Origin: Macrobrachium rosenbergii
Taxonomy: Eukaryota; Arthropoda; Malacostraca; Decapoda; Palaemonidae
Reading direction: 5' to 3'
Assembly: GCF_040412425.1 (NCBI RefSeq)
Contig: NC_089742.1
Span: 74,831,125 to 74,895,124 of the forward strand
DNA length: 64,000 nucleotides
Shown here: positions 2,595 to 10,247 of the stretch, in pieces
Position numbering within the stretch: the first letter of the stretch is position 1
Layout: the number at the start of each line of letters is the position of its first letter
Notes under the pieces: model-generated
The model's database searches: none
Seen by the model: only the letters and a program-made list of their open reading frames with translations
Told to the model about the DNA's origin: nothing
Program-made: the position numbers and the translations under genes

Positions 2595-2977
2595 TTAAAT
2601 GCATATGTGTATATAAATGCATATACTGTACATACATATACATATATTTATATCTTATATATAAAAGTGAATGTTTGCACGTTTGTTTGTTAGTGCACCA
2701 TAAAAATCTGAACCGCTTGACCGATCTAGACAAAATTTAGCAAGGGGCCATCATTCGACCCAACTTAGACAATAGGGTAGGTTATAATAGGGTAGGTTTC
2801 AAACCCATACTTCCTTCCCTATCCCCCATCCACCTTCCCTTTGTAACTTATGTGGTAAATAAACTCCACATGTTTATTATACCTCATTTCATGTGGTAAA
2901 TAAACTCAATACCTTATAAATATATTATTGAATATGATTTTCTTTACTGTAATTAATAATTCTGTATCAAGGTTAAG

Positions 2978-5900
2978 ATAGTCACCACAGTAATACCTAG
3001 ATAAAAGGGACAGTCACCACAGTAATACCTGGATAAAAGGTACAGTAATCTTTGGATAATAAGAACAGACAAAACAACAATACCACCTGGATGAAAAGGA
3101 CAATCAGCACAGTTATACCTGGATAAAAGGAACAGCCAAGAAGTAATGACTAGATAAAATGAACAGTCACCAAAGTAATACCTGGATAGGAGGGACAGTC
3201 AGAACAGTAATACTTGTATAAAGGGGACACACAGCACAGTAATGTCTGGATAAGTGGGACAGTCGCCACAGCAATGTCTGGATAAAATGAACATTCACCA
3301 CAGCAATATCTGGATAAATTGGACAGTCACCACAGTAATACCTGGATATAAGGGACAGTCACCACAGTAATGTCTGGATAAAAGGGACATTCAGCATAGT
3401 AACATCTGGGTAGGAAGGGCAGTCAGCATAGTAATACCTGGATGTATGGGAGTCAGCACATCAACACATGGATAACTGGGAAAGTCACCACAATAATACC
3501 TGGATAAAAGGGACAGTCAGTACAGTAATATTTGGATATATTGAGGAAAGTCAGTAGAGTACAGTCTGGATAAAATGGACAGTCAGCATAGTAAAACCTG
3601 GGTAGGAGGGACAGTCAGCATAGTAATAACTGGATGTATGGGACAGTCAGCACAGTAATACATGGATAATTGGGAAAGTCACCACAGTAATACCAGGATA
3701 AAATGGACAATCAGTACAGTAATAACTGGATAATTTGGAAAGTCAGTAGAGTAATACCTGGATAAGAGGAACAGCCACCACAGCAATGTCTGGATAAAAG
3801 GAACAGTCACCACAGTAATGTCTGGATAAAGTGGACAGTCACCACAGTAACACCTGGGTAGGAGGGACAGTCAGCATGGTAATACCTGGATGTATGGGAC
3901 AGTCAGTGCAGTAATACATGGATAATTGGGAGAGCCACCACAGTAATACCTGGATAAAAGGGACAGGCAGTACAGTAATACTTGGATAATTGGGACAGTC
4001 AGCAGAGTAATACATGGATAATTGGGAGAGTAACCACTGTAATACCTAGATAAAAGGGCTAGTACAATAATACTTGGATAATTTGGGAAGGCAGTAGAGT
4101 AATACCTGGATAAACGGGGCAGTCACCACTGTAATGCCTGGATAAAAGGGACAGTCAGCATAGTAACACCTGAGTAGGAGAGACAGTCAGCATAGTAATA
4201 CCTGGATGTATGGGACAGTCAGCACAGTAATACATGGATAATTGAGATAGTCACCACAGTAATACCTGGATAATATGGACAGTCAGTACAGTAATATTTG
4301 GATAATTTGGAAAGTCAATAGAATAATACCTGGATAAAAGGGACAGTCACTGCAGTAATGTCTGGATAAAAGGGATGGTCAGCATAGTAACACCTGGATG
4401 CATGGGATAGTCAGCACAGTAATACATGGACAATTGGGACAGTCACCACAGTAATACCATGATGAAAGGGACAGTCACCACAGTAATGTCTGGATAAAAG
4501 GGAAAGTCAGCATAGTAATGTTTGGATGAAAGGGAGAGTCAGCATAGCATACCTGGATGCATGGGACAATCAGCACAGTAATACATGGATAATTGGGAGT
4601 CACCACACTAATACCTGGATAAAAGGGACAGTCAGTACAGTACTACGTGTATAATTTGGAAAGTCAGTAGAGTAATACCTAGATAAAAGGGACAGTCACC
4701 ACAGAAATCTCTGGATAAAGGGACAGTCAGCATACTAACACCTGGGTAGGCAGAACAGTCAGCATAGTAATACCTGGATGTATGGGATAGTCAGCACAGT
4801 GATACATGGATCACTGGGAGTTACCACAGCAATATCTGGATAAAAGGGACAATCCGTACAGTAATACTTGGTTAATTGGGAAAGTCAGTAGAGTAATATC
4901 TGGATAAAAGGGACAGTCACCACAGTAATGTCTGGATAAAATGGACAGTCAGCATAGTAACACCTGGATGTATGTGACAGTCAGCACAGTAGTTCAAGGA
5001 TAATTGGGAGAGTCACCACAGTAATACCTGTATAAAAGGGACAGTTGGTACAGTACTACTTTGATAACTTGGAAAATCAGTAGAACTTGGGTAAAAGGGA
5101 CAGTCACCACAGCAATGTCTGGATAAAAGTTACAGTCAGCACAGTAACACCTGGGTAGGAGGGACAGTTAGCGTAATAATACCAGGATGTATGGGACTGT
5201 CAGCACAGTAATTCATGGATAATTAGGAGAGTCATCACAGTAATACCTGGATAAAAGGGTCAGTCAGTACAGTAACACTTGGATAATTGGGAAAGTCAGT
5301 AGATTAATACCTGGATAAAAGGGACAGTCACCACAGTAATGTCTGGATAAAACGGACAGTCAGCATAGTAACACATGTGTAAGAGGGACATCAGCATGGT
5401 AATATTTGGATATGGGACAGTCAGCATGGTAATACATGGATAATTGGGAGTCACCACCGTAATACCTGGATAAAAGGGTCAGTCAGTACAGTAATACCTG
5501 GATGATTGTGAAAGTGAGTAGAGTAATACCTGAATAAAAGGGACAGTCAGCATACTAATACCTGGGTAGGAGGGACAGTCAGCATGGTAATATCTGGATG
5601 TATGGGACAGTTGGCACAGTAATACATGGATAAAAGGGACAGTCAGTACAGTAATACTTGGATAATTGGGAAAGTTTGTAGAGTAATACCTGGATAAAAG
5701 GGACAGTCACCACAGTAATGTTCTGATAAAGAGGACAGTCAGCATACTAATACCTGAGTATGAGGGACAGTCAGCATAGTAATACCTGGATATACAGGAC
5801 AGTCAGCCCAGTAATACATGGATAATTGTGAGTCACCACAGTAATTCCTGGATAAAATGGACAGTCCATTCAATAATACTTGGATAATTGGGAAAATCAG

Positions 5901-8000: not shown

Positions 8001-8929
8001 TATAGATATAAAAATGGTGTATGTATGTATATATGTGTGTGCATGTTTGTGTATGTTCCAACATAACTCTGCAACACATCGAGCAGTTTCAACCAAACTT
8101 GGTATACATATGACTTACTATCTAGAAAACAATACTGTGAGGGTAAAACATCACTACACCAAAAGACACCAACGGGGGCGAGGTGGGAAGGGCTTCCCTT
8201 AAACGGGGCTGGTTTTCCCTGTAGACTTTAGCAACTAAATAAACTCTATGGGTTCATCATACCTCATTTTGGCATACATATGACTTACTACCTGGAAAAG
8301 AATACTGTGGGTGTAAGACATCACTGGCACCATAGGGGGCATGGGTGGGGTGGGAAGGGGGTGACATGGAAAAATAACTGGAAACGTCAGATATTGCTGT
8401 CTAATCAAGGTTGCTGAGATGGATGGTGACACTTCCGATGCCCTTTAAGTCCAAGTTCAGCCCCAAACTTGGTATACATATGACTTACTATCTGGAAAAG
8501 AATACTGTGGGGGTATGACATCACTGACACCAAAGGGGTGGGGGTGGAAAGGGGATGACATGTAAAAATAACAGAAAACAACAGTTATTAGTGTCTGATT
8601 CAAAGTTTTTGAGGTTGCTGAGATGAATGATGATACTCCTGATGCTCTTTAAGACCAAGTTCAGCCATGATGGGAAGGGCAGGTTAGAGTGAGAAGGGGT
8701 GAAAAATAAAATGTAAAAAATGACATATATTAGTGTCTAATCCATAGTTTTCAAGGTTGCTGAGATGAACAGTGACAGCCCCGATGCACTTTAAGTACAA
8801 GTTCAGCCCTGATAGGAATGGGGTGTGAGAAGGGGTGAAATATAAATTGTCAAAAGGGAGAGAGAGAGAGAGAGAGTTTATCAGTTGTCATTTAGAGTTT
8901 TCTCAGGCAGCGACGGGTCGGTCAGCTAG
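8001..8929 (+). mobile_element. Helitron B3, joined directly to B2
   Basis: It starts immediately after the CTAG of B2 with TATAGATATAAAAATGG, a mutated form of the family 5' end. The CTTGGCATACATATGACTT-type block occurs three times (near 8098, 8268 and 8466), giving a period of 170-200 bp. A short (GA)n run and TCATTTAGAGTTTTCTCAGG precede CTAG at 8926-8929. No gene inside. Confidence 0.75.
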
Positions 8930-10247
8930 TCTTATTTATAAAAGTGAATGTTTGTATGTTAGTGCACTATAGAAATCCAAACCTCTTGACTGATCAAGAA
9001 AATATTTGGCACATGGCCATCATTTGACCAAACTTAGACAAAAGGGTTGGTTTCAAACCTGTACCCCCTTAATTTTTCAAGTTATGTGGTACATGAACTC
9101 TACAGGCTTCTCATACTCCATTTCATGTGTAAATAAACTCTATGGGCGTAGCATACCTCATTTCATGTGCAAGATACCATAGAAATATATTATTGAAAGT
9201 GCTTTTCTTTCCTGTGTTTAATAATTCTGTATCAAGGTTTAGACAGCCACCACAGTAATACCTGGATAAAAGGGACAGTCAGCACAGTAATCCTTGGATA
9301 ATAGGGACAGACAGTACAAAAATACCTGGATAAAAGGGACAGTCAGCAGAGTAATACCTGGATAAATGGTACAGTCACCACAGTAATACATGGATAAGAG
9401 GGACAGTCAGAACAGTAATACCTGAATATAAGGTACAGACAGCACAACAATGTCTGGATAAATGGGGGCAGTCACCACAGTAATATCTGGGTGACTGACA
9501 ACTGTCACCACAGTAATACATGGATAAAAGGAACAGTCAGCATAGTAATATCTGGATAAAGTGTCAGTCAGCACAGTAATATCTGGATAAATGGAACAGT
9601 CACCACAGTAATACCTGGATAAAAGGGACAGTCACCTCAGTAATATCTGGATAAAAGGCACAATCAGCATAGCAATGCTTGGTAAGAGGGATAGTCAGCA
9701 TAGTAATACCTGGATGTATGGGACAGTCAGCACAGTAATACATGGATAACTGGGAGAGTCACCACAGTAATACCTGGATAAAAGGGACAGTCAGTACAGT
9801 AATACTTGGATAATTGGGAAGTCAGTAGAGTAATGCCTGGATAAAAGGGACAGCCACCATAGTAATATCTGGATAAATGGGAAAGTCAGTACAGTAATAC
9901 CTGGATAAAAGGGACAGTCAACACAGTTATAAATGGATAACAGGGACAGTCATCACAGTAATACATGGATAGATGGGACAGTCATCACAGTAATGTCTGG
10001 ATAAATGGGACAGTCAGAACAGTAATATTTGGATAAAAGGGACAGTTATTATAGTAATTTATGGATAAAAGGGAGTCATTACAGTAATACCTGCATAAAT
10101 GGGACAGTCAAAAAAGTAATGTTTGGTTGAAAGGGATAGTCAACACAGTAGTTCATTGATAAATGGGACAGTCAGTACGAGGAGGTGCAGGAAGATTTTT
10201 CTGAATCCTTCAGAGTTTTCCTGGGCAGCTCCAGGATGGTCAGCTAT
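8930..10247 (+). mobile_element. Helitron A2, second minisatellite-bearing copy
   Basis: TC at 8930-8931 follows the CTAG of B3 without any spacer. The 5' sequence (TTATTTATAAAAGTGAATG), the unique part ending TAATAATTCTGTATCAAGG, the 32-bp array and the 3' sequence (GTCAGTACGAGGAGGTGCAG, then TCCTTCAGAGTTTTCCTGGG) match Helitron A1. The terminal CTAG has become CTAT where a TA tract begins. Its array has about 29 monomers against about 106 in A1. Confidence 0.8.
9243..10175. repeat. 32-bp minisatellite array of Helitron A2
   Basis: About 29 copies of the same 32-bp unit as at 2978-6995, starting and ending at the same points in the element. The array is therefore part of the Helitron family and not a chance insertion. 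Confidence 0.92.

Follow-up and report, generated by a model that had tools for sequence, protein, structure and literature searches.

Background

Canonical non-autonomous Helitrons start with TC, end with a CTAG-type terminus and lie between A and T, while the Helitron-related DINE-1 / DINE-TR1 elements of Drosophila, which are of the HINE type, carry central tandem repeats that can expand. Centromeric higher-order repeats (HORs), such as those of human alpha satellite, are built from monomer types that follow one another in a fixed order. Here we describe two Helitron-like copies, A and B, from a 64,000-nucleotide stretch of Macrobrachium rosenbergii DNA (the window; C2:74831125-74895124, on contig NC_089742.1). 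Both carry an array of 32-bp monomers, and the array of copy A contains a HOR of 7 x 32 = 224 bp.

Compared with canonical non-autonomous Helitrons, the ends of this family are alike, whereas its body is mostly minisatellite and the 3' hairpin is weak in many copies. It shares expandable central repeats with DINE-1 / DINE-TR1, but the satellite-DNA expansion reported there is not seen in this family. The fixed order of types, with monomers of the same type more alike than monomers of different types, is common to copy A and human alpha satellite, whereas copy A holds only about 12-15 diverged units over 2.8 kb in one transposon copy, and nothing in the data bears on a centromere role.

Helitrons and their relatives with central tandem repeats, also as sources or carriers of satellites, are well described in the available excerpts of earlier reports (PMC10048060, PMC7492417, PMC8268682, PMC12628747, PMC11136912, PMC5139131), and tandem-repeat-carrying Helitrons are already known from oyster and Drosophila. 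According to an excerpt on the oyster, most copies studied there probably descend from a single master element, the number of monomers being the only difference between them (PMC5139131). The Cg_HINE / Helitron-N elements of Crassostrea gigas, as described in excerpts, are like the present family in being dispersed non-autonomous rolling-circle elements with a central array of variable length and shared junctions (PMC7492417, PMC8268682, PMC5139131). In the same excerpts the oyster monomers are mostly 160-180 bp, the arrays are mostly short (up to about 90 monomers are quoted in an excerpt of PMC10048060) and Cg_HINE has sub-terminal inverted repeats, whereas in the present family the monomers are 32 bp long, arrays reach about 140 monomers, the ends are TC and CTAG-type, and HORs occur. 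A literature search on HORs together with Helitrons or related terms, made on partly available texts, found no report of HORs inside a Helitron; subscription papers, including the main DINE-TR1 paper, were outside its coverage, and it is no proof of absence. Nor are such HORs described in the available excerpts of PMC10048060, PMC7754599, PMC12628747, PMC8268682, PMC10218199, PMC5139131, PMC12692304 and PMC5555486. In the available main text of a crayfish satellitome paper (PMC13130569), '32 bp' does not occur.

Two Helitron-like copies with shared ends and array junctions

Copy A (2653..7065, forward strand, about 4.4 kb) is a non-autonomous Helitron-like copy that starts with TC after an A and ends with GTAG before a T. 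Copy B (8930..10247, forward strand, about 1.3 kb) starts with a TC that directly abuts the CTAG of another element, X (see below), and ends with CTAT. The 5' flank of copy A runs from the TC terminus to the array junction (2653..2979, forward strand); it resembles the flank of B, with 239 of 289 ungapped positions identical between TC and array, and its junction recurs at other loci. On the 5' side the homology between A and B starts at the TC terminus, matching sequence precedes both arrays, and both arrays stop at one GTACGAGGAGGTGCAGG junction. The 3' end of copy A (6988..7065, forward strand), delimited by matches to the 3' query and an alignment of six termini, comprises the array junction, the hairpin region and GTAG. 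The six 3' ends aligned (A, B and four of the Y type described below) are alike over about 40 bases. The initial annotation had drawn two copies with shared ends and array junctions here; its coordinates proved exact and the junctions do match.

The commonest junctions in the family are an A before the TC at the 5' end, found at 16 of 32 located family 5' ends (1 duplicate and 2 Y-element rows removed), and CTAG or CTAA followed by T at the 3' end, found at 6 and 4 sites, i.e. at 10 of 22 located ends (1 duplicate and 5 Y-element rows removed). The patterns used in the end searches themselves held the letters TC (5') and CTAG (3'). Among the 22 family 3' ends, CTAG stands before a base other than T in 2 more, and the remainder are variants such as GTAG and CTAT; the 3' termini of A (GTAG) and B (CTAT) are degenerate. 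These commonest junctions do not agree with the T/T insertion and the ends other than TC and CTAG of the Helentron-associated HINE / DINE-1 type. No inverted repeats were found within a spacing of 60 bases and at a length of at least 10, and the termini were then examined by folding and alignment.

Higher-order repeat in copy A

The array of copy A lies in two parts. Its main part (2980..6068, forward strand) opens with about 13 unordered monomers, followed by the HOR region (3389..6068, start approximate, forward strand), and the remaining part (6682..6995, forward strand) has monomers collinear with those of B. Between them lies a nested second Helitron-like element of a family that we call Y (TC-(TA)n ... 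CTAG), which is 613 bp long (6069..6681, forward strand) and splits one monomer of A, so that 6055-6068 resumes at 6682-6683; the last HOR group goes on at 6682-6763. Cutting gave 98 pieces (2980-6069) and 11 pieces (6683-6995), or 107 monomers after the split monomer was rejoined and the last fragment dropped. The estimates of about 106 and about 29 units in the initial annotation agree well with the computed numbers, about 107 for A and 29 for B, while the split of array A by the nested element and the single seven-monomer block in B (9662-9883) were absent from it.

Monomer order was assessed without labels on 97 of the 98 main-part monomers (1 was dropped for gaps). Mean monomer identity at lag 7 is 0.765 versus 0.727 (sd 0.007), a value reached in 0 of 1000 shuffles, by which chance order in A is excluded. 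Lag 6 is also raised (7 of 1000 shuffles), lags 1 and 8 are not, and the first 14 monomers show no order (their best lag value is reached by 590 of 1000 shuffles). The fixed order with a period of 6-8 monomers that had been proposed for the longer array thus holds for lags 7 and 6 and fails for lag 8 and for the first 14 monomers; autocorrelation, suggested with that proposal as a check, did not return random order.

Seven monomer types (a-g) were seeded by eye, mainly from A, and the count of ordered steps is thus not independent. The type string of A reads aaeaodeodddad and then continues in efgabcd repeats, many of them incomplete. Forward steps in the order e-f-g-a-b-c-d make up 69 of 97, with a mean of 13 and a maximum of 29 in shuffles (n=10000). 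Identity is 0.869 between monomers of the same type (488 pairs) versus 0.730 between different types (3167 pairs). There are 15 groups with at least three ordered types, or 19 counting shorter ones, and 10 seven-monomer windows are at least 0.885 identical to the unit consensus; partial units such as gabc, fgad and bcd are also present. An assembly error of near-identical units as the origin of this HOR was rejected, as the units differ by about 13%.

A single block in copy B

The array of copy B (9242..10178, forward strand) was cut into 31 pieces, 29 of which are nearly whole, giving about 29 monomers. It contains one seven-monomer block efgabcd (9662..9883, forward strand), which corresponds to an unexpanded form of the HOR unit of A. 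This block is identical to the A-unit consensus at 208 of 222 positions, within the range of the individual A units (0.905-0.95), while other seven-monomer windows of B reach at most 0.852. The two arrays were compared by alignment at the monomer level, because MAFFT did not register their tails; the score is 42.9 versus a shuffle maximum of 13.9 (n=200). Monomers 5991 to 6987 of A are collinear with 9693-10011 of B, and farther upstream the alignment is loose. B itself has a weak periodicity at lag 4: its best-lag value is equalled in 50 of 1000 shuffles, and the z measure, applied twice to this array, gives 2 and 5 of 500.

Dispersal of the family in the genome

The genome assembly searched comprises 3,176,501,063 bases (3.18 Gb) in 78 contigs. 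Every genome search scores 40 candidates, and all genome-wide counts given here rest on those 40: they were drawn from 1319 candidates for the 5' query (first 108 bp of copy A), 1069 for the 3' query (6988-7064 of copy A), 3040 for the B block, 2715 for an array segment of the C9 locus and 2647 for the A unit. For the 5' query all 40 scored candidates match, on 28 contigs, with 82-87% identity for the 39 outside the window; the 3' query has matches at 41 places.

Two sets of loci were then read, and an array was counted as present where at least 4 monomers lie inside the stretch read. For 20 loci picked by their 5' end among the 39 matches outside the window, an array lies behind the 5' end in 16 and a 3' end match is found in 10. 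The other set was picked by array (n=17) and consists of L029-L036 (L029 is copy B), four loci on C9, C42, C7 and C55, which were selected since the B-block search listed several matches there, L049-L052 from the search with the C9 array segment, and L053 from the A-unit search. In this set 13 loci have the 5' flank and 13, counting partial matches, have the 3' end; 11 have both and 15 have at least one. Without B, at least one Helitron end is present in 14 of 16 and both in 10 of 16. No Helitron end was found at L051, which is partly masked, nor at L053, which an insert splits; both extend beyond the stretch read. In addition, C55 is without a 5' end, C9 is without a 3' end in the 1.8 kb past its array, and C7 reaches the end of its stretch. 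Among the loci read, the genome search for arrays with and without ends, suggested in the initial annotation, did not find most arrays to lack them.

The longest element read with both ends is L049, with about 138 monomers, and the longest arrays read are about 4.4 kb (L049, C9). Among the matches listed, the array matches are dispersed and form no single large block. The 5' array junction is alike at many of the loci compared, and junction sequence recurs at both array ends. Monomer order is also common to different loci outside the seven-monomer block, where 15 of 28 upstream and 9 of 21 downstream pairs beat all 60 shuffles, and among non-block loci, where 20 of 36 pairs beat all shuffles. 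These matches support carriage and spread of the array by an element of Helitron type. As would be expected of eukaryotic DNA, no match was found when viral contigs were scanned for the array and terminus patterns, or prokaryote contigs for the array pattern.

Higher-order repeats in other copies

A single block was defined by the cut used for A, a seven-monomer window at least 0.885 identical to the A-unit consensus. At each of 8 other clear-block loci (B included) there is one such window, with identities of 0.915-0.95 to the A consensus. At nine other array loci (L049-L052, C9, C42, C7, C55 and L053), no window reaches 0.90. Setting A, B, C36 and C1 aside, 34 of the 36 loci with listed matches to the A-unit query contain just one of at least 83%, and C27 and C9:30682196 have a second, shorter one. 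Among the matches listed, 9 full-length ones lie in A, and C1 has three at 83%, 320 bases apart. A HOR common to all copies of the family was rejected, with a single block at 8 of 8 other clear-block loci. Because all these 8 loci have one block, the most suitable reading of the HOR of A is amplification in that copy alone; such a HOR belongs to single copies and not to the family.

Different units are found elsewhere. For example, L053 (C1:17883500-17885900) has a 10-monomer unit in two full copies and part of a third, with identities of 317/320, 255/256 and 252/256 (98-99.6%). In L025, a dimer-based repeat of about 15 monomers (about 1865-2344 of the locus) is built from two types in alternation, with a signal at lag 6 (0 of 500 shuffles). 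Weak or different periods are found at L009 (lag 5; 4 of 500), at C9 (lag 5; 0 of 500), and at L051 and a second C7 array (lag 2; 0 of 500), while in L049, L050 and C55 identity is raised at every lag or almost every one, a pattern of local similarity and not of a clean HOR. In 87 usable monomers of L027 no order was found (488 of 500 shuffles). Multi-monomer repeats thus arise repeatedly in this family of Helitrons with 32-bp arrays, with different units and ages, since the 10-monomer units of C1 are as much as 98-99.6% identical.

Two side observations concern these arrays. At C36:24248990-24253093, an array of about 4.1 kb has at least 26 matches to the A unit at 75-83% and may be another HOR. 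Upstream, the array of L053 is broken by an insertion whose inverted ends read CAGTGGTTCCCAACC and which seems to have produced an 8-base target duplication; we take it to resemble a hAT element.

Age and mode of the expansion in copy A

Of the 19 groups in A, the 15 with three or more types were compared as units. Their mean identity over 91 comparable pairs is 0.871, and distance within the array has no detectable effect on it (Mantel r -0.06, p 0.30). Two thirds of the minor states are private (119, versus 59 occurrences of shared ones), and the internal branches of the unit tree are near zero, i.e. the tree is star-like. Simulated growth in the first 2-25% of the history fits this private fraction, while growth over the whole history reaches it in 0, 0 and 1 of 200 runs, and under simulated turnover it is reached in 3 of 150 runs (10 events) and 0 of 150 (30 events). 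The A units are 0.877 identical to the blocks of other loci, versus 0.913 for those blocks among themselves; those blocks had been picked for their best match to B, so that the latter value is inflated and the age comparison a rough one. One clade for all A units is neither required nor rejected (approximately unbiased (AU) test 0.39, with 2000 resamplings, below the number advised by the program).

The expansion in A was thus early, roughly as old as the dispersal, which fits an expansion at or soon after insertion. This early date does not point to rolling-circle amplification in particular, and the young units of C1 speak for duplication in place.

Origin of the higher-order repeat

The explanation that we prefer, and consider probable, is that A and B are copies of a dispersed non-autonomous Helitron family with a body made mostly of 32-bp minisatellite, and that the HOR of A arose by an early, copy-specific tandem multiplication. 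The element, with its TC 5' end and CTAG-type 3' end, is seated between A and T and would presumably be mobilised in trans by the rolling-circle machinery of an autonomous Helitron. The array and its monomer order would be carried along at each transposition, and the number of monomers would then change copy by copy. Early in the history of copy A, the seven-monomer block that is single in its relatives would have been multiplied in tandem about 12-15 times, most likely by duplication of a monomer run through replication slippage or unequal exchange. The units would since have diverged by point mutation with little later homogenisation, and other copies would have formed other multi-monomer repeats independently. 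That one block gave rise to many, and not the reverse, is a parsimony inference from 8 loci.

Several observations weigh against this explanation. The loci were selected by best score, and near-block windows exist, three at 0.888 in L050 and one at 0.890 in C7, with near-block matches in other subfamilies. In the comparison of monomer order, 6 of 24 control pairs of block versus non-block loci likewise exceeded every shuffle. The number of units behind the burst test is 15, and growth over the first half of the history is disfavoured rather than rejected, reaching the private fraction in 9, 10 and 8 of 200 runs. As to the family itself, no array was read behind 4 of the 20 5' ends (L012, L013, L024 and L028, with L024 partly masked) and no 3' end match was found at 10 of these 20 loci. 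Folding gives weak support to a 3' hairpin: a stem at the expected place is predicted in B and in the Y-type ends Y0 and Y2, it is not the best fold in A, Y1 and X (z -1.5 to -2.4), and in further family copies it is predicted in 3 of 8 (L018, L015 and L030), with z from -1.3 to 1.2 over all eight. Finally, A and B are 2 kb apart with a Y element after each, and this pair could be a local duplication; because of that, dispersal rests on the other loci.

The HOR could instead be a product of transposition, if aberrant rolling-circle replication made repeated rounds of a seven-monomer segment and copy A is the insertion of the resulting multimer. The star-like tree and the lack of a neighbour effect would suit this account, and so would the A units differing from one another about as much as from the blocks of other loci, which places the burst near the age of dispersal; rolling-circle tandem amplification of truncated Helitrons has been proposed in an excerpt of PMC12628747. 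We still regard it as fairly unlikely. The C1 units are far younger than the divergence of the family, and duplication in place would be the simplest account of them; A contains partial units of the kind expected after slippage or unequal exchange; the comparison of ages is a rough one, with blocks picked by likeness to B; and monophyly of the A units is left undecided by the AU test. The wider claim that Helitron transposition can create HORs in one step, by running off a multi-monomer segment repeatedly in rolling-circle replication, seems to us rather doubtful. If true, a short array within a dispersed transposon could gain a HOR in a burst, and later moves of the element could bring that HOR to other sites.

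The other alternatives concern the history of the copies. A and B may come from a local segmental duplication and not from two transpositions, which would explain the Y-family element after both and an alignment that passes the element end (6685-7405 versus 9869-10569, 79.6%). This seems quite improbable, given that the 5' homology begins right at the TC terminus, that Y elements are frequent here, one also being nested in the array at L036, and that copies of the family are found on 28 contigs. Still more doubtful is that A is the old form, with a master element that had the HOR and B-like copies derived from a contracted version. The last unit of A does share some states with B (in monomer types g and c), and a single origin of the A units is not required, but contraction to one block would be needed before dispersal to account for all 8 clear-block loci, and the B block is 0.91 identical to the last unit of A, no closer than to several others (up to 0.92). 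Repeated capture of a free minisatellite or satellite by different Helitrons is very improbable. Transposon capture of satellite repeats is described for other genomes in an excerpt of PMC10048060, and C9, C55 and L051 show one end or none though the other side was read at least partly; against this, the junction sequence recurs at both array ends across loci, monomer order is common to different copies, and L051 and L053, both running off their stretches, are the only array-picked loci without a Helitron end.

Y-family elements and other features of the window

There are four Y elements in 8 kb here, three of which stand head to tail with A and B: Y1 (7066..7999, start approximate, forward strand), with a similar 3' terminus and 5' part, X (8000..8929, start approximate, forward strand), whose CTAG end meets the TC of copy B, and Y2 (10248..10811, start approximate, forward strand), with (TA)n and a CTAG end. 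A (TA)n stretch marks the 5' end of this family, and several copies also have (AG)n close to their 3' end. A Y element was found inside a 32-bp array twice, in copy A and at L036. The nested element in A lies between two A bases, from its TC to its CTAG, without target duplication; A in place of T on its 3' side would be explicable by one substitution.

A similar short sequence (with ACATTTGTAAATCCACAG) occurs twice between long (TA)n stretches, at about 10315-10360 and 1980-2030, and is perhaps a small element targeting TA repeats. At 45785-46764 of the window, a 492-bp unit with a CT-type microsatellite is duplicated in tandem with 98% matches. Fragments of other transposable elements comprise a reverse transcriptase (PF00078; 769-1320, reverse strand), a mariner-type Transposase_1 (PF01359; 21637-22089, forward strand) and a Mutator-like transposase (PF20700; 55389-55883, reverse strand).

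Significance

In the initial annotation, a Helitron that spreads a satellite-like array was put forward as a route for seeding satellite DNA. This idea is partly supported: the array is carried by an element with 5' end matches on 28 contigs, whereas classical satellites were not found with 40 candidates scored per search, the arrays read being at most about 4.4 kb and nearly all having a Helitron end, and these data alone do not show that Helitrons seed satellite DNA. The family is a further case of a Helitron with a minisatellite body.

Most work on HORs concerns huge centromeric arrays, where it is difficult to trace how the repeats arose, and HOR structure is usually ascribed to long homogenisation at centromeres. 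Here they are found in a family of possibly about 1000 short, bounded copies, going by the 1319 and 1069 first-look candidates for the two ends. One genome shows the single-block state, an old expansion in copy A and a fresh 10-monomer one on C1, so that the steps leading from unordered monomers to a HOR could be dated and compared.

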